This document shows, piece by piece, positions 22,987 through 34,257 of a stretch of DNA of 34,257 nt (positions are counted from its first letter, which is position 1; every line of letters starts with the position of its first letter). This DNA comes from Sulfuricaulis sp. GTDB lineage: Bacteria > Pseudomonadota > Gammaproteobacteria > Acidiferrobacterales > Sulfurifustaceae. The notes under the pieces were generated by a model, which saw nothing but the letters and a program-made list of their open reading frames with translations, searched no databases and had not been told where the DNA came from. The stretch is taken from positions 1 to 34,257 of the forward strand of contig JANLIC010000044.1 in the NCBI GenBank assembly GCA_024654125.1, given 5' to 3'. Position numbers and translations under genes: made by a program.

Positions 22987-24366
22987 ATGCCACCTCAACA
23001 AGACCGCATGTCCCCGACCGAGCGGCGTGCCACCGCCGGACTGGCCGGAATTTACGGCCTGCGGATGCTTGGGTTGTTTCTGATTCTGCCGGTGTTCGCA
23101 GTTTACGCGGAACGCCTGCCGGGCGGCGAAAACCACACCCTGATCGGACTGGCGTTGGGAATCTACGGGCTGTCACAGGCGCTGCTGCAATTGCCCTTCG
23201 GCATGGCGTCGGATCGTATCGGACGCAAACGAGTGATCTATTTTGGGCTGGTGTTGTTCGCACTGGGCAGCTTCATGGCCGCCGCGGCCGACGACATTTA
23301 CATGGTCATTGTCGGGCGCACGATCCAGGGCGCGGGCGCCATCAATGCGGCGTTGACGGCACTGCTGGCGGATCTCACGCGCGAGGAGCATCGCACCAAG
23401 GCGATGGCCGTGGTCGGTGGAACCATCGGGCTGACCTTCGCTGTTTCCCTGGTTCTGGGTCCTGCGCTATATCACTTGATCAGCATCCCGGGTATTTTCG
23501 CAATGACAGGCGTGTTGGCCCTGCTAGCGGTGTTGGCGATCAAATTCATTGTTCCCAATCCGAAGGCCAGCCATTTCCATTCCGATGCCGAGGTGGTGCC
23601 GGCTGGCCTGCTCAGCGTGTTGCGCGATCGCGAACTGGGACGGCTGAATTTCGGGATTTTCGCGCTGCACGTGGTGCAGATGGCGATGTTCGTGGTGGTC
23701 CCGTTTGCGCTGCGGAATACGGGTAATCTCGATGCCAACCATCACTGGCAGGTTTATCTGCCGGTGCTCGCGATTTCCGTCATGCTCATGCTCCCGCTGA
23801 TCTTTTACGGCGAGAGAAAGGCCAGGGTCAAGCCGGTCTTTATCGGTTCCATCGCGCTGATGCTGGCCATGCAGCTCGCCTTCATTCCCGCCATCGATCA
23901 TTTCTGGGGCGTGGTCACGGTGCTGACATTCTATTTCGTTGCCTTCAACGTGCTGGAAGCGAGCCTGCCCTCGCTGGTGAGTAAAATTGCTCCAGCGAGC
24001 GCCAAAGGCACGGCCCTCGGGGTCTATAATACCTGCCAGTCGCTGGGACTGTTCGTCGGCGGGGTGGCGGGCGGGTTGCTCTCGAATTACTTTGGCACAG
24101 GGGCTGTGTTCGCGTTCGGCGCGGTCCTGATCGGCGTTTGGTTGTATCTGGCTTACGGGATGAAAACACCTCCGGCGATAAAAAATTTGATGTTTCATAT
24201 CAACACACTGAATGCGGAAGAGGCCCGGCGCCTGGAGCGCGAGCTGTCAGGCGTCAAGGGCGTGGCCGAAGCCACTGTGATCGCCGACGAGGGGGTCGCC
24301 TATCTCAAGGTAGACCGGCGTTATTTTGATGAGCAAGCGCTGCGCCGTTTATTACCCTCGGCCTGA
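22987..24366 (+). CDS. yajR: MFS transporter of the YajR type
   Basis: This 459-residue inner-membrane carrier has about 12 hydrophobic segments and the MFS motif A, GMASDRIGRKRVIYF, between TM2 and TM3. After TM12 (about residue 395) it has a soluble domain of about 60 residues (NTLNAEEARRLERELSGVKG, ATVIADEGVAYLKVDRRYFD). That resembles the C-terminal ferredoxin-like YAM domain of E. coli YajR. Substrate is unknown; drug or metabolite export by proton antiport is the family expectation. The first ATG is used; a second ATG seven codons later is possible. It sits between uvrA and ssb. Confidence 0.88.
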   Translation: MPPQQDRMSPTERRATAGLAGIYGLRMLGLFLILPVFAVYAERLPGGENHTLIGLALGIYGLSQALLQLPFGMASDRIGRKRVIYFGLVLFALGSFMAAAADDIYMVIVGRTIQGAGAINAALTALLADLTREEHRTKAMAVVGGTIGLTFAVSLVLGPALYHLISIPGIFAMTGVLALLAVLAIKFIVPNPKASHFHSDAEVVPAGLLSVLRDRELGRLNFGIFALHVVQMAMFVVVPFALRNTGNLDANHHWQVYLPVLAISVMLMLPLIFYGERKARVKPVFIGSIALMLAMQLAFIPAIDHFWGVVTVLTFYFVAFNVLEASLPSLVSKIAPASAKGTALGVYNTCQSLGLFVGGVAGGLLSNYFGTGAVFAFGAVLIGVWLYLAYGMKTPPAIKNLMFHINTLNAEEARRLERELSGVKGVAEATVIADEGVAYLKVDRRYFDEQALRRLLPSA

Positions 24367-24479
24367 AGGGTGACCGGACCGTGGATCGGTATTTTACAGT
24401 TCATTCCTTTAGAACATTTTTATAAACTGATGTATCACCTTGATTTATTCAGCGCTAGTCCTTGTGACTGGCGGTGGAA

Positions 24480-24508
24480 TTGTGCCGGCATCCGAATCTG
24501 GCTATGAT
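24480..24508 (+). promoter_or_regulatory. Candidate promoter for ssb
   Basis: TTGTGC (24480-24485) and TATGAT (24503-24508) are separated by 17 bp. A start near 24515 would leave a leader of about 115 nt containing the 24524-24607 inverted repeat. No LexA-type box overlaps it. Confidence 0.45.
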
Positions 24509-24523
24509 GATTTACCCTTAACT

Positions 24524-24607
24524 TCACGGAGAAACGGGTTTTTTACTTTCTTTTTTGACAAAGCGAACGAGCGAAGCGAGCAGGCTTCCTTATTCATGTC
24601 TCCGTGA
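24524..24607. repeat. Inverted-repeat-bounded segment upstream of ssb
   Basis: TCACGGAGA at 24524-24532 and TCTCCGTGA at 24599-24607 are perfect 9-bp inverted repeats. They enclose a T-rich stretch and GCGAACGAGCGAAGCGAGC. The segment lies in the ssb leader, 21 bp before the start codon. It may be a small insertion element or a long-range RNA stem. Confidence 0.55.
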
Positions 24608-24628
24608 CTAACCAATGGAGAAACAGGC

Positions 24629-25099
24629 ATGGCACGCGGTGTAAACAAGGTAATTTTGATCGGCAATCTGGGGCGTGATCCCGAGGTGCGTTATTCTCCC
24701 AGTGGATCCGCGGTGGCGAATGTCACGCTGGCCACGTCGGAATCATGGAAAGACAAGAATTCCGGCGAGAAGCAGGAAAAGACCGAATGGCACCGGGTGG
24801 TGTTTTTCGGCCGACTGGCCGAGATAGTCGGTGAATACCTGAAAAAAGGTTCACAGGTGTTTGTCGAGGGACGTCTTCAGACACGCAAGTGGCAGGACAA
24901 GGAAGGGCACGACCGCTACACCACTGAAATCGTCGCCAATGAAATGCAGATGCTCGGCTCTCGCGGGGGCGCTGGGGTACCAAGCGACAATTTCAATCAG
25001 GATCAACCGTCCGCGGCGGAAAATTCCGGCCCGACCGGAGCCAAAAAGGCGGGCAGCACGGCGGTGGCCGGGGATTTCGACGACGATATTCCATTCTGA
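24629..25099 (+). CDS. ssb: Single-stranded DNA-binding protein
   Basis: SSB coats single-stranded DNA and recruits repair and replication partners through its C-terminal tip. The 156-residue product begins [20 protein letters not shown]. It has the OB fold to about residue 110 ([20 protein letters not shown] and [20 protein letters not shown]), a short flexible linker, and the terminal DDDIPF motif. Length is a little shorter than E. coli SSB (178) because the linker is short. GGAG precedes the ATG. It is downstream of the YajR-like gene, close to uvrA, as in many gammaproteobacteria. Confidence 0.97.
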
Positions 25100-25122
25100 G
25101 ATTAAATATCAGTGTAGGCGGG

Positions 25123-25150
25123 GATGTGAGAATCGCTGTCTCACATCTTT
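25123..25150 (+). terminator. Possible ssb terminator hairpin
   Basis: GATGTGAGA / TCTCACATC form a perfect 9-bp stem with a 7-nt loop, 24 bp after the ssb stop. Only TTT follows, so termination may be weak. Confidence 0.5.
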
Positions 25151-25195
25151 GCACCCGCTCATCTCACGCTAGTCCGCCTTTCCTCGATGTGCAGT

Positions 25196-25221
25196 AAAAA
25201 ACAGGGGGCATTCGCCCCCTG
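25196..25221 (-). terminator. Intrinsic terminator of the small membrane protein gene
   Basis: On the minus strand, CAGGGGGC / GCCCCCTG form a perfect 8-bp stem with a 4-nt loop, followed directly by TTTTTT. It lies about 29 bp after the stop of the minus-strand gene at 25250. Confidence 0.85.
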
Positions 25222-25249
25222 CCGATTGCCGATCTACTGGCTATTTACT

Positions 25250-25579
25250 TCAACTCCTGGCTGTTAAAAACAGTGTCCTGAGGGAAACGACCAGCACAGC
25301 GGCGCCCGTGAGTGCGACGATGTTGCCAAGTATCGGTGCCCCGTATGTTTGCACGACCGGGATCGCGCTAAACAACGCGTTGGCGGCCGTGGCGGACAAC
25401 ATTAGTCCGATCGCCGCCAGGAGGAAATTCGTTGTTTCTTTGCCTCCCACGTTCAGAAAGCCCACGGCAATTCCTATAAGTGCCAGAATAAGCGGTACCG
25501 AGCCGTGGGTGAAGCCAAGTACGGCCACTACGGCAATCACGAGTCCGGCGATAAACGCCCATTTACCAATCATCTCCAT
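25250..25579 (-). CDS. Small multi-pass membrane protein of unknown function
   Basis: I do not recognise this 109-residue protein. It is strongly hydrophobic, with three to four probable membrane segments (WAFIAGLVIAVVAVLGFTHG, PLILALIGIAVGFL, TTNFLLAAIGLMLSATAANA, ILGNIVALTGAAVLVVSL). A short NVGGKETT segment lies between the second and third. It has no signal cleavage site. The ATG at 25579 is preceded by GGAGG with a 6-bp spacing, and a strong terminator follows. It is a single-gene unit, so it is very likely expressed. No function can be assigned. Confidence 0.75.
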   Translation of the reverse strand: MEMIGKWAFIAGLVIAVVAVLGFTHGSVPLILALIGIAVGFLNVGGKETTNFLLAAIGLMLSATAANALFSAIPVVQTYGAPILGNIVALTGAAVLVVSLRTLFLTARS

Positions 25580-25847
25580 GTGCAACCTCCATTGAGTTTG
25601 AGGAAAGGTGAATATTGAGTTGATTTTGGGGGAAAATGCTGCAGCAAACTAAAGAGAGAAACGGAAACCTACATAGAGAACAGAGAACAGTGTCACTGCA
25701 TTTGATATCATTAAGTAACGATTAACGGAAGAGGAAAATCCTACTTTTTTTCATCGGGAACTGCACACCGCACGAAAATGGGCGTGAATCAAAAACTCTT
25801 CTCCATGTCTTGTTTGTCCGCCACGGGTGTAAGGCGGATTCATCCGT

Positions 25848-26195
25848 TTAACCGGGTGGCCAGTGCATGTTTCGGCCGCCAAGCACATGCATGTGGATAT
25901 GAAACACCGACTGGCCGGCGTCGGCATTACAGTTCATGACTGTCCGATAACCTGACTTGGCCAAGCCGGATTCCCCGGCAATACGGACAGCCGCTTTCAT
26001 CAGTTTGCCGATTAGATCGGCATCGCCATCGGCCAGATCATTGAGTGTGGCGATATGCCTTTTGGGAATCACCAGAACGTGCAACGGGGCCTGTGGATTA
26101 ATGTCCTTGAACGCCAGAACGTCCTTGTCCTCATACACCGTATTCGGTTTGATCTGCCCCGACACCATTTTGCAAAACAGGCACTCTGCTGTCAT
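25848..26195 (-). CDS. hinT: HIT-family purine nucleoside phosphoramidase (HinT-like)
   Basis: The 115-residue product has the HIT family fold: LFCKMVSGQIKPNTVYEDKD at the N-terminus, PLHVLVIPKRHIATLNDLAD in the centre, and the histidine triad HIHMHVLGG near the C-terminus. HinT proteins hydrolyse adenosine 5'-phosphoramidates and acyl-adenylates. Length matches E. coli HinT (119). The start is preceded by AGAGAGA. It stands alone on the minus strand, divergent from the acidic protein gene; the histidines of the triad are all present. Confidence 0.93.
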   Translation of the reverse strand: MTAECLFCKMVSGQIKPNTVYEDKDVLAFKDINPQAPLHVLVIPKRHIATLNDLADGDADLIGKLMKAAVRIAGESGLAKSGYRTVMNCNADAGQSVFHIHMHVLGGRNMHWPPG

Positions 26196-26362
26196 ATAAT
26201 TTCTCTCTGGTTGTCCCGCGTGGCGGCCACGGGGTGGGCCGCGAGCTTGTCAGCATAGTGCGGTAGCCGTCGGGAGGAAAGAGCGGGAAAGGAGGCAGTG
26301 GCGGATCGTAAAATGCCGTCTATATATTTTGTGAAGAGGGTTTTTTCGCGAGGGGATTGAAA

Positions 26363-26647
26363 ATGCCTATGCATGATGAACCGGTGGTCGGGGCCGTTTA
26401 CAAAGATTTGGAGGAGGATGGCCGCACGTTTGAGGTCATTGCCTTTGATGAAAACGATGGCACCATCAAAATTCAGTACAGCGACGGTTCCACCGGCGAG
26501 ATCGACCTGGATGACTGGTACGGGATGGACCTGGAACGTCTGAAGTCTGACGACGACGAGGACGACCCGGACGAGGGCAAAAGCGCCGAGGACGACGATA
26601 CTGACTTGGACGATGATGTGGAGCTGGATGACGAAGAAGAGGAATAA
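26363..26647 (+). CDS. Small acidic protein, DUF6763-like
   Basis: The 94-residue product starts MPMHDEPVVGAVYKDLEEDG. It has an apparently folded first half with FEVIAFDENDGTIKIQYSDG and IDLDDWYGMDLERL. The last 40 residues are nearly all Asp/Glu (DDDEDDPDEGK, DDDTDLDDDVELDDEEEE). The first half resembles small gammaproteobacterial proteins that I recall as DUF6763; I am not certain of the number. Function is unknown. I choose the ATG at 26363, with AGGGG 7 bp upstream, over the TTG two codons earlier. Such acidic tails can mimic nucleic acid or bind basic proteins, but that is speculation. Confidence 0.75.
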   Translation: MPMHDEPVVGAVYKDLEEDGRTFEVIAFDENDGTIKIQYSDGSTGEIDLDDWYGMDLERLKSDDDEDDPDEGKSAEDDDTDLDDDVELDDEEEE

Positions 26648-26760
26648 AAAAATACTCAAGACTGCCTTGGTAACAAGCTTTCCCGCCACGTCCCGCAGCC
26701 AGATTACTCAATAAGGAACCTGGGCAGCCTTCCGTGCCCCACCATTTCCATTTATTGAAT

Positions 26761-26789
26761 GAGGCAACGATCCGCCGGATCGTTGCCTC
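26761..26789. terminator. Hairpin between convergent genes
   Basis: GAGGCAACGATCC and GGATCGTTGCCTC form a perfect 13-bp stem with a 3-nt loop. It lies between the ends of the plus-strand acidic protein gene and the minus-strand HU-like gene. Neither side has a clear T tract, so its role as a two-way terminator is inferred from position. Confidence 0.55.
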
Positions 26790-26877
26790 GGGTTCGTGCT
26801 TATCGACGATCAGCCCGTGAGACCGGCCATCGTCACATGCTGTTCTTGGAAACGCCTAAATTCCCGTGAATTTGCGC

Positions 26878-27198
26878 TTACACCATGTCCTTCAGCATTT
26901 TTAGCGGCTGGCACTTGACCACGTTGCGTGCGGGTTTGGCCTTGAAAATAACCTCTTCTTTGGTGAACGGGTTGATGCCCTTACGAGCGGGTACCGCCGG
27001 CTTGTAGACCATCTTGATCTTCATGAGGCCGACAAGATTGAAAATGCCGGGGCCCTTTTTCAGATCGCGCTCGATCAGGCTGGTCATCGTATCGAAAACC
27101 GCCACGACGTCTTTACGCTTTAGGTTGGTTTTCTCCGCGATATGGGCGTAGATCTCGGACTTCGTGGTCGGTTTCTTTCCCGATTTGTTGTTTGCCAT
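26878..27198 (-). CDS. HU-like DNA-binding protein
   Basis: HU-family proteins bend and compact DNA as dimers. The 106-residue product has a short Lys-rich N-terminal extension (MANNKSGKKPTTKSEIYAHI). An HU-type helical part follows (AEKTNLKRKDVVAVFDTMTS), with FNLVGLMKIKMVYKPAVPAR and GINPFTKEEVIFKAKPARNV on the arm side. It resembles the divergent HU-like proteins of beta- and gammaproteobacteria rather than HupA, HupB or IHF. The ATG at 27198 follows AGGAG with a good spacing; the longer frame upstream is rejected. The single-gene unit faces the 420-bp gap upstream. Confidence 0.85.
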   Translation of the reverse strand: MANNKSGKKPTTKSEIYAHIAEKTNLKRKDVVAVFDTMTSLIERDLKKGPGIFNLVGLMKIKMVYKPAVPARKGINPFTKEEVIFKAKPARNVVKCQPLKMLKDMV

Positions 27199-27549
27199 GT
27201 AATGCTCCTGAGTGGAATATGGGTTTGTGGGGTTAGGTAAACGCACATAATTTAGCGGAAAAGGCAGGGGGATAGAAGAGCGGAATCCATTTATTCCCGG
27301 GAATTCCGGAGTTTCCGGCGTCGCCCGCCTGCGACCGTTATGGCGCCTCCACGGCCGTCATAACAGTCGCCCCTCTGAGGCTACCCCCGCTCCTATGGAC
27401 TGAAAGAGTTATCCAGCCGTCGGCCTGGGACGTTCGGATTCCCTTCCCGGTGTCGGAATCCTGCTGAGGGAATATGCCCAGCTCCGTTTTACAGACGTCC
27501 GCCTGCCAGACAACGCTTTAAAAATAATGCGTTACAGGGGGTCCGCCTA

Positions 27550-27555
27550 TATAAT
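27550..27555 (+). promoter_or_regulatory. Consensus -10 box upstream of the FmdB-aspS cluster
   Basis: A perfect TATAAT lies 65 bp before the FmdB-like start codon; no good -35 box is found at 16-18 bp. A start near 27562 would give a leader of about 58 nt that contains the 27578-27606 hairpin. Confidence 0.45.
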
Positions 27556-27577
27556 CCTGCTTGTCTGGAATATTCCC

Positions 27578-27606
27578 CGCCCCCATACTTTGGGGGCGCA
27601 TTTTTT
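27578..27606 (+). terminator. Terminator-like hairpin in the leader of the FmdB-like gene
   Basis: CGCCCCCA / TGGGGGCG form a perfect 8-bp stem with a 5-nt loop, followed by CATTTTTT. It ends 2 bp before the AGGAG of the next gene. It lies after the -10 box, so it could attenuate transcription, or it could end transcripts from upstream. Confidence 0.65.
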
Positions 27607-27619
27607 CAGGAGAAGCGGT

Positions 27620-27922
27620 ATGCCGATTTACGAGTATGAATGCGGGTCATGTGGCCACCGGCTGGAAGCCATCCAGAAGATGAGTGAGTCGGTTCTGAAG
27701 GACTGTCCGGCCTGTGGCAAGTCTGCACTCAGAAAGCAGATTTCCGCGTCCGGTTTCCAGCTTAAAGGCAGTGGCTGGTATGTCACGGATTTCAAGGGCG
27801 GGGGCAAGAAGGAGAAATCCGAATCTTCGGATGCCAAATCCTCGGATACCAAGGATTCCACTCCCCCGAAAAAGAAAGCCAGCGGCGGTTACGGCGGCGG
27901 CGGTTGCGGCTGTGCCCATTGA
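27620..27922 (+). CDS. FmdB-family zinc-ribbon protein
   Basis: The 100-residue product begins MPIYEYECGSCGHRLEAIQK. It has a zinc ribbon with Cys8/Cys11 and Cys29/Cys32 (CGSC, CPAC), followed by SASGFQLKGSGWYVTDF. A low-complexity Lys/Ser-rich linker and a glycine-rich end, GGGGCGCAH, complete it. These are features of FmdB putative regulators, whose biochemical role is unknown. The in-frame extension to 27527 is rejected because the ATG at 27620 has AGGAG upstream and matches the family start. The order FmdB, DUF502, aspS is common in proteobacteria, so this is probably one operon. Confidence 0.9.
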   Translation: MPIYEYECGSCGHRLEAIQKMSESVLKDCPACGKSALRKQISASGFQLKGSGWYVTDFKGGGKKEKSESSDAKSSDTKDSTPPKKKASGGYGGGGCGCAH

Positions 27923-27925
27923 GGC

Positions 27926-28567
27926 ATGATGGCGACGCTGCGACGATATCTGGTGGCTGGGTTGCTGATCTGGGTCCCGCTCGGCGTTACCCTGCTGATT
28001 GTAAAGTTCCTGGTGGATCTAATGGACCGGACTCTGCTGCTGCTTCCTGTAAGCATTCAGCCGGAAACCCTCTTGGGCTTCCGTATTCCGGGCCTGGGAC
28101 TGGTGTTGACCGCCATCGTCGTCCTGGCGACCGGTATGATTGCCACCAACCTCTTTGGCATGCAGCTGTTCACCATCGGCGAGCGAATTTTGCAGCGCAT
28201 CCCGCTGGTGCGTTCGATTTATGCCTCGGTCAAGCAGGTCACGCAGAGCATGTTTTCCTCCGGCAAGTCGTTTAGCAAAGTGGTGCTGGTCGAATACCCC
28301 CGCAAGGGCATGTGGTCGCTGGCGTTCCAAACTGGATCGGGAGCGGATGAAATCAAGAGCAAGACAGGACAGGAAATCGTCAACATATTCATTCCCACCA
28401 CGCCGAACCCCACATCCGGTTTTTTCCTTATGATCTCCCGCAGTGACGTGATTGAGCTCGACATGACCGTGGATCAGGGTCTTAAAATGCTGCTCTCTGT
28501 CGGAGTGGTGATTCCTGAATATAAAAAAGATGTTCTTACCGGCCAGCAGGCGCGCCAGGAATCCTGA
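27926..28567 (+). CDS. DUF502 family membrane protein
   Basis: The 213-residue product has two hydrophobic segments (about residues 8-32, [20 protein letters not shown], and about 55-80, [20 protein letters not shown]). A soluble region with [39 protein letters not shown] and [16 protein letters not shown] follows. This is the DUF502 pattern; the function is unknown. It starts 3 bp after the FmdB-like stop with two adjacent ATG codons (27926, 27929), and aspS begins 34 bp after its stop. The context suggests co-transcription with aspS, not a shared biochemical pathway. Confidence 0.9.
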
Positions 28568-28601
28568 GCGTGCCCCGTTTGTCCTAACAGCCGGAGACAA
28601 A

Positions 28602-30395
28602 ATGCGCAGTCATTATTGCGGCGAACTCAACGATTCCTTCATCGGCCAGCGCGTTACCCTGTGTGGCTGGGCCCACAGCCGCCGTGACCACGGCGGTGTG
28701 ATCTTCGTCGATCTGCGCGACCGCGAAGGCGTGGTGCAGACGGTATTCGATCCTGCTAAAAAAGAACCGTTTGCCGCCGCCGAGACGGTGCGCACGGAAT
28801 TCGTCCTGCGTGTGCAGGGTAAAGTGCGGGCGCGGCCGACCGGCACCGAAAACCCGCACCTGCGCACCGGCAAGGTGGAGGTCGTCGCCGACCACGTCGA
28901 AATTCTCAACCGCGCCGAGGCCCTGCCATTCCAGCTCGATGAGGCCGATCTTTCCGAGCCGGTGCGGCTCACCTACCGCTATCTCGATCTGCGGCGCGAT
29001 GTCATGCAGAAGAATCTGCGGCTGCGACACCGCATTACCCGGATGTTGCGGCGATTTCTGGAAGACCGGCATTTCACCGAAATCGAAACGCCGATGCTGA
29101 CCCGGTCCACGCCCGAGGGCGCTCGTGACTACCTCGTGCCTTCGCGCACGCATCCGGGCCATTTCTTCGCGCTGCCGCAATCGCCGCAACTGTTCAAGCA
29201 GCTACTGATGGTCGCGGGCTTCGAGCGCTACTTCCAGATCGCGCGCTGTTTCCGCGACGAGGACCTGCGCGCCGACCGCCAGCCGGAATTCACCCAGCTC
29301 GACGTTGAGACCTCGTTCCTGGATGAAAACGGCGTGATGGGCCTGATGGAGGAGATGCTGCGCGCGCTGTTCAAGGATGTGCTCGGCGTCGATCTGCCCG
29401 ATCCGGTTCCGCGCCTGAGCTACGACGAATGTTTGCGGCGCTTCGGGACGGACCGGCCGGACTTGCGCGTGTCGCTGGAACTCGTGGATGTCGGCGATCT
29501 GATGAAGCAGGTCGAGTTCAAGGTTTTTGCTGGTCCAGCGAATAGTCCAGCCGGGCGCGTGGCGGCGTTACGTGTGCCCCAGGGCGGCGAACTGCCGCGC
29601 AGCCAAATCGACGGCTACACGGATTTCGTCGGGCAGTATGGCGCCAAGGGGCTGGCGTATATCAAGATCAACGATGCGGCGAAGGGACGCGACGGGTTGC
29701 AATCGCCAATACTCAAATTCCTGCCGGATGATGTCATCGCGGGCATCCTGCAACGCACGAATGCACAGACGGGAGACCTGATCTTCTTCGGGGCTGACAC
29801 CGCCAAGGTCGTCAACGATTCGCTTGGGGCGCTGCGCCTGAAGCTGGGTGAAGATTTGAAACTCAGTCAGGAGGGTTGGAAAATTCTGTGGGTGGTGGAT
29901 TTCCCGATGTTCGACTACGACGCCGAGGCCAAGCGGTGGGTCGCGCTGCATCATCCGTTTACGTCTCCCAAAGTTGAAGACCTGGAGCGTGTCGATATAG
30001 ACCCAGCCAATGTCACGGCTCGTGCCTATGACATGGTGTTGAATGGCTCCGAAATTGGTGGCGGATCCATCCGTATCCACCGTGTGGATGTACAGGAAAA
30101 GGTATTTGCCACGCTCGGTATCGGACCCGACGAGGCGCGTGCCAAGTTCGGCTTCCTGCTCGATGCGCTCCGTTACGGCGCGCCGCCCCACGGAGGAATA
30201 GCCTTCGGCCTCGACCGCCTGTGCGCACTCATGAGCGGTGTGGATTCGATCCGCGACGTGATCGCCTTCCCCAAGACGCAGAAGGCCACGTGCCTGCTGA
30301 CCGAGGCCCCGAGCACGGTGGATGAGAGGCAGCTGCGCGAACTTCATATCAAATTACGTCAGCCTCCAGAGAAAATTCCCGGCGAGGCGACGTAA
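28602..30395 (+). CDS. aspS: Aspartyl-tRNA synthetase, probably non-discriminating (Asp/Asn)
   Basis: The 597-residue class II synthetase begins [20 protein letters not shown]. It has the N-terminal OB-fold anticodon domain (to about 110), motif 1 near residues 130-180, motif 2 with [20 protein letters not shown], the bacterial GAD insertion (about 290-420) and motif 3 with [13 protein letters not shown] near 545. His30 in HSRRDHGG and Gly81 in RPTGTENP match the residues that mark the Pseudomonas non-discriminating enzyme (His31, Gly82). E. coli has Leu at the first site. The longer frame upstream is rejected because GGAG precedes the ATG used. Confidence 0.97.
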
Positions 30396-30402
30396 TATGG
30401 CA

Positions 30403-30533
30403 AGACGAGTGAAGCAGGGCTACCAATCTTACTGAGCATGCGCGAAGCGCATCCGGCTCGCCTCCCTCTCCCGCGATAGCGGGAGAGGGAATGAGGGTGA
30501 GGGTTTGTGACTAGACGAACGCAGCAGGACTAC
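30403..30533. repeat. REP-like hairpin flanked by a 21-bp imperfect direct repeat (aspS-nudB)
   Basis: CCCTCTCCCGC / GCGGGAGAGGG with loop GATA lies at 30464-30489. The segment reads as the reverse complement of the copy before ruvC (GGCGAGCC arm on its left, AATGAGGGTGAGGG on its right). It lies between AGACGAGTGAAGCAGGGCTA (30403) and AGACGAACGCAGCAGGACTA (30513), near-identical words. Confidence 0.8.
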
Positions 30534-30537
30534 TTTT

Positions 30538-31005
30538 TTGTTGCTACAGACGAAAAAATTTAAACGCCCGGAATCGGTCCTGGTGGTGGTTTATACCCGG
30601 ACCGAAAAAGTATTATTGTTGCGGCGTTCCGACGATCCCGGTTTTTGGCAATCGGTGACGGGCAGCCTGCGGTGGGAGGAGAAGGAACCTCGACGGGCTG
30701 CGGCACGGGAACTCGAGGAAGAGACCGGACTCACGCCGTTGGAACTTCATGCGACGGGATGGGTGAATCGCTATACGATTCTGCCGCAATGGCGCCATCG
30801 CTATGCCCCCGAGGTGAATGAGAACAGGGAACATGTTTTTTATCTTGTGCTTCCCGACGAGCGCGAGATCGTTTTAAATATACGTGAGCATACGGAATAC
30901 GGGTGGTATTCGTTCGAGGCCGCGGCCGAGAAAGCCGCTTCCTGGAGCAACCGCGAGGCCATCCTAAAGTTGAAGGAAAATGTCGAAACCGGCCGCGACG
31001 TCTGA
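30538..31005 (+). CDS. nudB: Dihydroneopterin triphosphate diphosphatase (Nudix)
   Basis: NudB removes pyrophosphate from dihydroneopterin triphosphate in folate synthesis. The 155-residue product has FKRPESVLVVVYTRTEKVLL at the start and DDPGFWQSVTGSLRWEEKEP. The Nudix helix ARELEEETGL follows; the box has one extra residue before REL, as in NudB relatives outside the enterics. WRHRYAPEVNENREHVFYLV and SWSNREAILKL complete the match. No ATG is available near the N-terminus; TTG at 30538 (AGGA about 9 bp upstream) or the adjacent TTG at 30541 is the start. Its end overlaps the next gene by 26 bp. Confidence 0.9.
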   Translation: MLLQTKKFKRPESVLVVVYTRTEKVLLLRRSDDPGFWQSVTGSLRWEEKEPRRAAARELEEETGLTPLELHATGWVNRYTILPQWRHRYAPEVNENREHVFYLVLPDEREIVLNIREHTEYGWYSFEAAAEKAASWSNREAILKLKENVETGRDV

Positions 31006-31636
31006 ACGTGCACCGTCCGTCGTTCTTGTTCACGGCCTGTGGTTCCCGGGCTGCCTTCTGACGGTGCTGGGACGTCAGCTGCGCCGGCAGGGATTCAAAA
31101 TTTATATTTTCTCTTACCCTTCCGTGCGATCCGATCTCATCGATAATGCCGCGCGGCTTTCGCGTTTCCTCGAAACACTCGATGCCGATACCGTGCATCT
31201 CGTGGGCCACAGCCTGGGGGGGATACTGATCCGCGCCCTGTTTCAGAATCATCCCCGACAGAAACCGGGGCGCGTCGTGACCCTCGGCACGCCGCACGGC
31301 GGCAGCCGGGTCGCCGCCCATTTGAGTCAACATGTTATTTGGCGCCGCGTGATGGGAAAAGGAACGGCGCAGTTGCTCGCGGCAGTACCTCAACAATGGG
31401 CGGCACCGCCATGCGACGTTGGTGCGATCTGTGGCACCCGATCCTTGGGCATTGGGAGATTCTTGGTGCGTCACCTGCCGCGGCCCAACGACGGTCTGTT
31501 GACGGTAAAGGAAAGCGCTTATCCCGCCGCCCTCGAACACCTGGCCTTGCCGGTGTCGCATACAGGGATGCTGTTTTCGCGCACGGTGGCACGTCAGGTT
31601 GGCGCCTTTTTAAAGCACGGACATTTTGCCCCTTGA
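30980..31636 (+). CDS. Alpha/beta hydrolase (lipase/esterase-like)
   Basis: The 218-residue product has the alpha/beta hydrolase fold. [11 protein letters not shown] near residue 15 supplies the oxyanion region, [17 protein letters not shown] holds the nucleophilic serine, RPNDGLLTV the likely acid, and LPVSHTGML the catalytic histidine. It has no signal peptide and no lid-like insertion. The [13 protein letters not shown] loop resembles PGAP1- or lipase-type members. Substrate is unknown. It overlaps the nudB end by 26 bp and has AAGGA before its ATG, so it is probably co-translated. It could be an esterase, thioesterase or lipase. Confidence 0.85.
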
Positions 31637-31660
31637 ATCGCGTCATTTCCTTGCTCGCGG

Positions 31661-31690
31661 TTGGGCGATGTCTGGGCCCGATGTTACACT
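31661..31690 (+). promoter_or_regulatory. Weak promoter candidate for yebC
   Basis: TTGGGC (31661-31666), an 18-bp spacer and TACACT (31685-31690) precede yebC by about 50 bp. The boxes are poor matches, so this is tentative. Confidence 0.3.
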
Positions 31691-31740
31691 GGAGCACCGC
31701 GAAACGGCGGGCAGACAACGATTTCAAGACAGGAACATTC

Positions 31741-32490
31741 ATGGCCGGCCATTCGAAATGGGCCAATATCAAGCACCGCAAGGGGGTCCAGGACGCCCGG
31801 CGAGGCAAGGTTTTCACCAAGCTCATCCGCGAAATCACCGTTGCTGCGCGCGCCGGCGGTGGGGGCGATCCCAAGCTCAATCCGCGCCTGCGCACCGCCA
31901 TGGACAAGGCCTTGGCCGCCAACATGACCAAAGACACCATCGAGCGTGCCATCCAGCGCGGAACCGGCGAGCTTCAAGGGGCGCAATACGAGGAAGTCCA
32001 TTATGAAGGTTACGGCCCGGCCGGCGTCGCGATCATGGTCGAGGGCACCACGGACAATCGCACCCGCACCGTCGGCGAGGTGCGTCACGCCTTTTCTAAA
32101 TATGGCGGCAACCTGGGGCAGGACGGTTCGGTCGCTTTCCTCTTTAACAAAACCGGGATACTCAGCTATCCCGCCGGGACCAGCGAAGACAGGATCATGG
32201 AGGCGGCACTCGAGGCCGGGGCCGAGGACGTGATCGCAGACCCGGACGGTTCCATCGAGGTCTTGACCACACCCGAGGTGTTTCATGCCGTGGTCGAGGC
32301 CATGGAAAAACAAGGTTTGAAGCCCGAGCATGTCGAGATCCAGCAGCGGGCCTCGACCGCTTCCCCCGTCGCGGGCGAGGACGCCGAACAAATGCTCAAG
32401 CTTTTGGAAGCCCTGGAAGACCTGGACGACGTGCAGAATGTGTATTCGAATGCAGACTTTCCAGACGAATTACTCAAACAGGCAAGTTAA
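31741..32490 (+). CDS. yebC: YebC/PmpR-family protein
   Basis: YebC proteins were long annotated as transcription regulators and are now linked to relief of ribosome stalling at proline-rich stretches. The 249-residue product begins [20 protein letters not shown]. It contains [40 protein letters not shown] and [18 protein letters not shown], all family signatures, and ends [15 protein letters not shown]. Length matches E. coli YebC (246). A longer frame upstream is rejected, since the ATG at 31741 has AGGA upstream and matches the universal start. The yebC-ruvC order is common in proteobacteria. Confidence 0.97.
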
Positions 32491-32533
32491 AAAAATTGAC
32501 GCCATGGCCGCACTTTGCCCTTACTCTCGTTCC

Positions 32534-32672
32534 CGCTCCCGGAGGGAGCGACCACCGGGCCAAATGGTTGTCGCGAATGGTGGCGATGAACCGGTGTAAT
32601 CTCACCCTCATTCCCTCTCCCGGTGGGAGAGGGAGGCGAGCCGAGGCGCGCTGGCGCGCTCGCTTTTATTAA
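32534..32672. repeat. REP-like hairpins between yebC and ruvC
   Basis: Two perfect stems are present: CGCTCCC/GGGAGCG at 32534-32550 and TCCCTCTCCC/GGGAGAGGGA at 32612-32634. The second is followed by GGCGAGCCGAGGCGCGCTGG, the arm seen in the other copies. The element ends about 10 bp before the ruvC start and leaves no clear ribosome-binding site. Confidence 0.8.
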
Positions 32673-32682
32673 TCCCGCGCTG

Positions 32683-33207
32683 ATGCGAATTCTCGGCATC
32701 GATCCCGGTTCGCGTATTACCGGTTTCGGCGTGGTGCAGGTGTTGCGTAACGGACGAATCGAATATATCGCCAGCGGTTGCGTGCGCGTGCCTCGGGGCG
32801 AGATTGGCGGACGGCTTAAAACAGTTTTTGACGGTGTAACGGAAATTATCCGTACCTATCAACCCACGGTACTCGCCATCGAAAAGGTATTCATGGCTAA
32901 AAACGCGGATTCCGCCCTCAAACTCGGGCAGGCGCGCGGCGCGGCGATCCTCGCCGGCGCCAACCAGATGCTCGACATCGCCGAGTACACCGCGCTGCAG
33001 ATCAAGCGCACCGCCGTGGGCCAGGGCCACGCCGGCAAACAGCAGGTGCAACATATGGTCAAGGCGCTCCTCGCGCTGAACACAGTTCCGAAGGCCGACG
33101 CCGCCGATGCGCTCGCTTGCGCCATTTGTCATGCGCATCATGCGGTGGGATTGCAGGCGCTGCCGCGACGCAAGGCAAGTCGGCGCCGGATGAGACTGGC
33201 CCCGTGA
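32683..33207 (+). CDS. ruvC: Crossover junction endodeoxyribonuclease RuvC
   Basis: RuvC cuts Holliday junctions produced by RuvAB branch migration. The 174-residue product begins [20 protein letters not shown]. It keeps the four acidic catalytic residues: Asp7 in GIDPG, Glu67 in AIEKVF, Asp139 and Asp142 in KADAADALA. Length matches E. coli RuvC (173). The ATG at 32683 is used because the upstream in-frame extension encodes repeat sequence. No Shine-Dalgarno is seen, because a REP-like element abuts the gene. The stop overlaps the ruvA GTG by 4 bp. Confidence 0.97.
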
Positions 33208-33797
33208 TCGGACGCCTGCACGGCGTGCTGCTGCGCAAGGAGCCACCGGCCCTGCTGGTGGACGTCAGCGGCGTGGCTTACGAGCTGGAAGCCCCCATGA
33301 CGACTTTTTACGAATTGCCGGCGGTGGGCGATCAGGTGACGCTTTATACGCATCTCGTCGTGCGCGAGGATGCGCACCTATTATATGGATTCATCCGCGA
33401 GACCCAGCGGCGACTGTTTCGCGATCTGCTCAAGGTCAACGGTGTGGGACCGCGCGTGGCCCTGGCGGTGCTGTCGGGCCTGTCGGACGAAGAATTCACG
33501 CGTTGTGTAGCCGAAGAGGACATTGCGCGACTCACAAAGGTCCCGGGGATCGGGCGCAAAACCGCCGAGCGTCTGGTGATCGAAATGCGCGACAAGCTGC
33601 CCCAGAATGCCCCAGCGCCGGCCACCCGCCTCGCCGCCGGAGCCACACCGTCCGATCCGGTGAGCGAGGCGGTCAGCGCGCTGGTGTCCCTGGGCTATAA
33701 GCCGAACGAGGCCAGTCGCGCCGTGCGCGGCGTATCTGCGAAGGGGCTGAGTGCGGAGGAAATCATCCGGCAGGCGCTAAAGGGGATGGCCGGATGA
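33204..33797 (+). CDS. ruvA: Holliday junction branch migration protein RuvA
   Basis: RuvA tetramers bind Holliday junctions and load the RuvB motor. The 197-residue product starts at GTG ([20 protein letters not shown]). Domain I (about 1-62) includes [16 protein letters not shown]. Domain II has two helix-hairpin-helix motifs, [17 protein letters not shown] and [16 protein letters not shown]. Domain III, which binds RuvB, ends [15 protein letters not shown]. The GTG overlaps the ruvC stop (GTGA), as expected for coupled translation. Longer upstream frames are not RuvA-like. Length is close to E. coli RuvA (203). Confidence 0.97.
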
Positions 33798-33923
33798 GCC
33801 TGTGCGAGGGTGTTACAGTATGTGTTCTATTGCGCCCATCAAAGCATGACGGTACAAGGAGAAAGTAGATGCAAAATTGGAGGAACCCTCACCCCCGGCC
33901 CGATCGAAATGAAGACGCTCATC

Positions 33924-34075
33924 GACTTCCCCTCTCCCTCCGGGAGAGGGCAAAGGATGAGGGGATCGATCCCCCCTCATCCCCATCCCTTCTCCCGCAA
34001 GGGGAGAAGGGAGCGAGCCGAGGCGCGCTGCGCGCGCTTTCTTTCACTTGGGCAGAGGGGGAGTAGGCGGACATC
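33924..34075. repeat. Full-length REP-like element between ruvA and ruvB
   Basis: Its parts occur in the same order as before rplE: CCCTCTCCC/GGGAGAGGG at 33930-33950, GATGAGGGGAT/ATCCCC.CTCATC, CCCTTCTCCC/GGGAGAAGGG at 33987-34011, the arm GCGAGCCGAGGCGCGCTGCG, and the tail GGGGGAGTAGGCGGACATC. The ruvB start lies 6 bp beyond. The remaining 126 bp of the ruvA-ruvB spacer show nothing recognisable. Confidence 0.85.
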
Positions 34076-34081
34076 TATATT

Positions 34082-34257
34082 ATGATCGAGACCGACCGAC
34101 TGGTATCAGCGCATGCGGTAGAAGCGGCCGAAGAAACCGTCGAGATGCGGCGGCTGCGACCGGCGCGCCTCGCGGAATACGTGGGCCAGGAACCCATCCG
34201 GCGGCAGATGGAGATTTTTATCGCCGCCGCCCGTGGGCGCCACGAGGCGCTGGACCA
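34082..34257 (+). CDS. ruvB: Holliday junction DNA helicase RuvB, N-terminal fragment
   Basis: RuvB is the AAA+ ring motor of Holliday junction branch migration. Only the first 58 codons lie in the window. They read [20 protein letters not shown], then [36 protein letters not shown], matching the RuvB N-terminus (the RP..L.EYVGQ motif). The ATP-binding Walker A motif would follow just past the window edge. The ruvA-ruvB spacer of 284 bp is unusually long because of the inserted repeat. Confidence 0.95.

Follow-up and report, generated by a model that had tools for sequence, protein, structure and literature searches.

The leader of the fmdB-DUF502-aspS cluster of Sulfuricaulis sp. (GenBank assembly GCA_024654125.1, contig JANLIC010000044.1) probably contains two nested promoters, one of the sigma70 type (P1) and one of the sigma32 (RpoH) heat-shock type (P2), arranged so that a G-C-rich hairpin could be formed only by the transcript of the sigma70-type promoter. 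The sequence analysed, here called the window, is a stretch of 34,257 nt from an incomplete genome (2.43 Mb, 346 contigs, 87.7% complete). Its relevant features, with promoter starts as expected from promoter geometry, are as follows.

26878-27198, minus strand: gene for an HU-type DNA-binding protein, upstream of the fmdB leader
27526-27533, plus strand: AATGCGTT block, conserved non-consensus -35 region of the presumed P1, 24 nt before TATAAT
27550-27555, plus strand: TATAAT, -10 element of the presumed P1 (sigma70); expected start at about 27561-27563, from the usual geometry
27560-27566, plus strand: CTTGTCT, -35 element of the presumed P2 (sigma32/RpoH), matching only the CTTG of CTTGAAA
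27578-27598, plus strand: hairpin CGCCCCCA-TACTT-TGGGGGCG, 8 pairs (7 G-C and 1 A-U) with a 5-nt loop
27581-27588, plus strand: CCCCATAC, -10 element of the presumed P2, after a 14-nt spacer; expected start at about 27594-27597, from the geometry of dnaKp1
27601-27606, plus strand: T6 tract, separated from the stem by 2 nt and from AGGAG by 1 nt
27608-27612, plus strand: AGGAG, ribosome-binding site upstream of the FmdB ATG
27620-27922, plus strand: gene for an FmdB-type zinc-ribbon protein (Pfam PF09723, E 6.8e-18), ATG at 27620
27926-28567, plus strand: gene for a DUF502 protein (Pfam PF04367, E 2.2e-36)
28602-30395, plus strand: aspS, aspartyl-tRNA synthetase gene (Pfam PF00152, PF02938 and PF01336)

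The three genes of the cluster lie in one direction on the plus strand, and the Pfam matches for all of them uphold the identity that a preliminary description of this DNA had given to the cluster. Three sets of loci were compared with the window. The relatives comprised 56 loci, one of which (L119) was dropped when its FmdB start was not found, leaving 55 leaders, 53 from the same order and two (L113 and L121) from the same class only. All 56 relatives' loci gave a tblastn match to aspS at the same locus as fmdB, and 52 gave one to DUF502. A further 80 genome-contig loci, which overlap partly with the other sets (L031 and L002, for instance, share one leader), were used only for scoring with a clpB matrix and for the tblastn searches; aspS was found at the fmdB locus in 75 of them and DUF502 in 31. 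The third set, a class sample, took the best 108 of 216 matching genomes, excluded the loci of the other sets and, after the loss of L330 and L350, provided 106 leaders. DUF502 was matched by tblastn in 45 of the 108 class loci from these best 108 of 216 genomes, in stretches that are short; a DUF502 motif regular expression (30/106 class loci, again from the best 108 of 216) was unreliable and was dropped in favor of tblastn. Related loci are not independent. Other elements were seen nearby: an inverted repeat of 15 nt with 87% complementarity, GCGACCGTTATGGCG / CGTCATAACAGTCGC (27331-27370), situated between the fmdB leader and the HU-type gene; a repeat-like palindrome, CCCTCTCCCGC-GATA-GCGGGAGAGGG (30464-30489), 3' of aspS; and a strong, terminator-like minus-strand hairpin with a T-rich tail (25200-25223), just after a minus-strand open reading frame at 25250-25585.

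The hairpin in front of the fmdB cluster exists as first described, apart from minor corrections: the stem has the eight pairs reported for it and not the all-G-C composition, and the T-run, placed 2 bp before AGGAG in that description, ends 1 nt before it. Hairpin, T-run and upstream TATAAT, all three of which had been noted, are present in each of the nine genus members examined, the window included, and in all nine the arms CGCCCCCA and TGGGGGCG are identical and the 8-pair stem is kept. The stem is stable (-16.6 kcal/mol) and as G-C-rich as is expected of a terminator stem. Folding of the 69-nt leader gave -30.9 kcal/mol (z -3.65), a stability equalled by none of 200 shuffles; for a 141-nt stretch around the leader, z was only -1.33 and 17 of 200 shuffles were as stable. 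By count, terminator-like patterns between 24000 and 34257 are near chance (16 found versus 12.0 +/- 3.4 expected). A search of the window against Rfam 15 returned no match at gathering score, and the three matches between 27200 and 27900 fell far below gathering score, all of them on the other strand. Importantly for what follows, the left arm of the hairpin contains the CCCCA of the presumed P2 -10 element, and the right arm contains the expected P2 start.

The P2 motif had not been named in the preliminary description and emerged from reading the leaders of the relatives, in which CTTG, 17 nt and CCCCAT recur about 60 nt before FmdB. The window has this arrangement, which is the spacing of a sigma32 promoter, and the eighth base of its -10 element is C versus T in CCCCATNT. 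The E. coli sigma32 promoter dnaKp1 shares CTTG, a spacer and CCCCAT with the window, with spacing within 1 nt; on the scaffold printed for dnaKp1, CTTGAA occupies -35 to -30 and +1, counted along that scaffold, is the tenth base after CCCCAT (PMC10216364). The window nevertheless differs from sigma32 promoters in its -35 element, CTTGTCT rather than CTTGAA(A), and the variants found in the genus (CTTGTCT, CTTGTTT, CTTGTGC, CATGTCT and TTTGTTT) include no CTTGAAA. A gene for RpoH itself is present in the same genome (TIGR02392 match of 373.8 bits against a cut-off of 323.1).

The pattern TTG-N16..18-CCCCA was found within 120 nt of FmdB in 38 of the 55 relatives' leaders, against a mean of 0.57 in shuffled leaders (maximum 4) and a single occurrence on the reverse strand. 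It was likewise enriched when only one leader per genus was kept (15/26 versus 0.29 in shuffles), within the genus of the window (8/9 versus 0.11) and in the class sample drawn from the best 108 of 216 genomes (19/106 versus 0.91, with 2 on the reverse strand). Searches of the genome of the window for further copies were less informative: CTTG followed by 15-16 nt and CCCCAT gave 3 matches versus 6 in the control and missed the window site, which has 17 nt, and a longer pattern with 17 nt and one mismatch gave 119 versus 56 in the control, too many for any to be used singly. In the same genome, a thioredoxin-Hsp33 gene pair has CTTG-N16-CCCCAT upstream (L141, reverse strand, 1179 of 2705).

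The clpB genes of the same genomes were chosen as a reference so that the E. coli consensus would not be the sole guide. Thirty loci each were collected for clpB, groES and hslV, and those in which the gene start was misplaced were left out (L209, L212, L214 and L225 for clpB, L183 for groES and L257 for hslV). Sites of the type CTTGAAA-N13..15-CCCCATNT were present upstream of clpB in 25 of 26 regions, and the P2 spacer of the window falls in the same range. As references for sigma32, hslV was dropped for its few sites and groES for the GCACTC...GAGTGC repeats in many of its upstream regions. Such inverted repeats, presumably CIRCE-like, precede many of the groES genes (L173-L202), while clpB has sigma32-type sites. 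With a matrix built from clpB only, 24 of the 55 relatives' leaders scored above the 95% null and 10 above the 99% null; the corresponding numbers were 38 and 30 of the 80 genome-contig leaders, and 60 and 41 of the 106 class leaders (best 108 of 216 genomes), the reverse strands of which gave 14 and 2. At 6.5, the P2 site of the window falls short of the 95% null (8.2), because its -35 element lacks AAA. The case for P2 in the window is drawn from its place and spacing, which are fixed across genera.

The -10 element of such a site is fixed by the promoter, and the test for a hairpin is whether the downstream side has been chosen to pair with it. Sites could be scored in 46 of the 55 relatives' leaders by a stricter rule (9 had no site) and in 49 by a looser one (6 had none). 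In 25 of 49 loci, all of the first four bases of the -10 element had downstream pairing partners, as compared to 4.2 +/- 2.0 in 500 shuffles, of which the highest reached 11; at clpB the same pairing occurred in 1 of 25 loci versus 0.63 in shuffles. When shuffling in a folding test was confined to the downstream part, p was <0.05 in 20 and <0.01 in 13 of 46 loci, and at least three of the four -10 bases were paired downstream in 33 (fewer than three in the other 13). The same folding test at clpB gave 0/25 at either level and at least three paired bases in 4/25; a -10 element that doubles as a hairpin arm, as in the window, is thus not seen at clpB. Covariation of the flanking pairs was weak to marginal (p 0.015 over 45 loci; p 0.06 over 20 loci, one per genus). 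Together, the stem kept in all nine genus members and the -10 pairing in 25 of 49 loci show that the hairpin is not a product of chance.

The two elements differ in their reach. Among the 60 class leaders with a promoter signal (best 108 of 216 genomes), the hairpin was detected at p<0.05 in 7 and at p<0.01 in 2, which rules it out as a class-wide feature. Thus, the sigma32-type signal is widespread, and the hairpin is mainly a feature of this order; across the class, pairing is hardly above chance. This distribution bears on the reading that there is no functional sigma32 promoter and that CCCCAT is kept only for its role as left arm in an RNA hairpin. The degenerate -35 elements of the genus would agree with such a reading, which is nevertheless improbable: over half of the class leaders carry the promoter signal, few of those have the hairpin, and many of the class sites carry CTTGAAA. 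Because CTTG-N-CCCCAT occurs across the class without the hairpin, the promoter signal has the broader distribution of the two.

The inverted repeat could also act at the DNA level, as a repressor site overlapping the sigma32 -10 element. It does cover that element, and its arms are identical in the nine genus members examined. However, in 15 loci of the family the loop varies from 4 to 8 nt and the arm sequence differs among families, and over 49 loci the C's of the -10 element lie 4 to 13 bases from their best partners. Variable loops and arms are a poor fit to the fixed spacing of a site for a dimeric protein, and a repressor site here seems distinctly unlikely.

As to P1, a TATAAT or TATACT box precedes the sigma32-type -35 element in 48 of 49 loci, at a distance of 3-7 nt in 41 of them. 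There is no recognizable -35 hexamer at the usual spacing from the TATAAT of the window, and a scan of 24000-34257 for sigma70-type promoters listed two sites, neither of them at 27550-27555. The AATGCGTT block is shared by the genus and by several other genera. In at least 15 of the 24 loci where a script detected a block of this kind, it begins 24-25 nt ahead of TATAAT; the true number may be higher, as the script sometimes took a different copy (e.g., in L009). As a -35 region the block is unusual in lacking TTGACA, and it is perhaps an activator or UP-type site.

The hairpin and T-run were originally taken for an intrinsic terminator that nearly every transcript would have to pass. What stands of this is that a sigma70 RNA would carry the hairpin; the signs of terminator function are weak, and a presumed sigma32-type promoter overlaps the hairpin. 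A main promoter located after the hairpin had been named as one observation that would speak against the proposal, and P2 comes close to being one, overlapping the hairpin with its expected start in the right arm. In the resulting alternative, the hairpin and U-tract would form an attenuator at which part or most of the sigma70 RNAs stop at about 27601-27606, giving RNAs of about 40 nt, and in a stronger form of the proposal the sigma32 promoter would be a built-in bypass. The strong stem and a T-run of 4-8 nt in nine of nine genus members favor an attenuator, and a looser rule for terminator patterns does list the leader hairpin. Moreover, L029 has a T5 immediately downstream of its stem, and L022 keeps a T4 close to the stem despite a distant ribosome-binding site.

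Other properties of the T-run argue against this alternative. The U-tract does not directly follow the stem, the gap being 2 nt in the window and 2, 2, 5, 2, 3, 5, 2, 5 and 5 nt in the nine genus members (L001-L009, in order), whereas the distance from the end of the T-run to GGAG is 2 nt in the first eight of these and 3 nt in the last. The T-run of the genus is anchored to the ribosome-binding site and not to the stem. In L012, a T6 directly adjoins GGAG at a distance of 39 nt from the stem; in the loci of one family (f4) the hairpin is kept and a T-run directly after it is absent. Scored with a formula of the d'Aubenton-Carafa type (threshold 0), the window hairpin reaches -12.9, and 12 of 15 family loci, the window included, fall below 0, as compared to 21.3 for the neighboring minus-strand hairpin at 25223-25200. 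The three family loci with scores above 0 are L003, L029 and L012, the last by virtue of a TTTGTTG right after the stem; none of the four f4 loci scored is above 0. Among the relatives, T makes up 0.43 of the 12 nt leading up to the ribosome-binding site (52 leaders), versus 0.29 of the 120-nt leaders, and the T-run is most likely in the main a U-rich stretch that precedes this site. An alternative antiterminator fold had been named as something to look for; inspection by eye of the 53 leaders folded (of 55; L011 and L113 have no TATA box) revealed none that was shared. Terminator activity is possible and is not the best-supported conserved function of the hairpin; an attenuator as the explanation of this leader is considered somewhat unlikely.

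Alternatively, the leader might hold an RNA thermometer or another translational switch, in which the start of the sigma70 transcript sequesters the ribosome-binding site. Such a fold is predicted for the P1 RNA of the window, whose ribosome-binding site pairs with the 5' end at 0.47 and with any partner at 0.82, versus 0.21 in the predicted P2 RNA; for L002 the predicted values are 0.93 and 0.22. Seven of nine genus members are predicted to have the site paired with this 5' end (0.47-0.71), L006 and L009 being without such pairing. However, over 48 leaders (of the 49 loci scored by the looser rule), this pairing summed to 8.8 versus 10.9 in shuffles, with p<=0.05 in none, and the Rfam search gave no match. 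Pairing of the 5' end with the ribosome-binding site, being not above shuffles, was set aside, and a thermometer of this kind is very improbable.

The preferred reading, nested sigma70 and sigma32 promoters, would work as follows. Transcription from P1, directed by TATAAT at 27550-27555 and starting at about 27561-27563, would yield a leader of about 57 nt that carries the whole hairpin. Transcription from P2, directed by CTTGTCT-N14-CCCCATAC (27560-27588) and starting at about 27594-27597, would yield a leader of about 24 nt that begins in the right arm and lacks the left arm and the loop. As the left arm of the hairpin is the P2 -10 element, the hairpin would be possible in the P1 RNA and not in the P2 RNA. 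Judged from sequence, both promoters may be active, and the hairpin would then most likely act as a 5' structure that tunes the output of P1 by way of stability, pausing or modest attenuation, with heat shock leading to a hairpin-free mRNA. A bolder version, in which the leader is selected by the sigma factor, the hairpin restrains vegetative transcripts and heat shock relieves this restraint through a start inside the stem rather than through antitermination, is doubtful.

Several known systems resemble parts of this arrangement. The hslVU (clpQY) mRNA of E. coli has a stem-loop in its 5'-UTR, near a sigma32 promoter, that is said to affect the level of the mRNA. That stem-loop lies in the sigma32 transcript, whereas the hairpin of the fmdB leader would be excluded from it. 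The housekeeping gene rpoD of E. coli has separate promoters for growth and for heat shock (PMC3415461); in the fmdB leader, by comparison, the two presumed promoters overlap in a stretch of about 40 bp, and one of them would start within the hairpin of the other's transcript. Premature termination in 5'-UTRs has been reported to be widespread in E. coli (PMC7815308). Like 5'-UTR attenuators with intrinsic terminators, the fmdB leader has a G-C-rich hairpin and a T-run before the first gene, but it has a poor score and an unfavorable T-run spacing, and the hairpin would be bypassed by a second promoter. In the literature searched, chiefly open-access text without supplementary tables, no paper was found that treats RpoH and FmdB together, and no link of the FmdB/DUF502/aspS cluster to heat shock came up.

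If the nested-promoter reading is true, an uncharacterized FmdB zinc-ribbon gene would be under heat-shock control in many Gammaproteobacteria and, provided that the putative co-transcription of the cluster holds, so would the DUF502 gene and the tRNA-synthetase gene aspS. The design would be a compact one, in which a single CCCCAT serves both as a promoter element and as a hairpin arm, and in which the choice of sigma factor would decide whether the mRNA carries a 5' hairpin.
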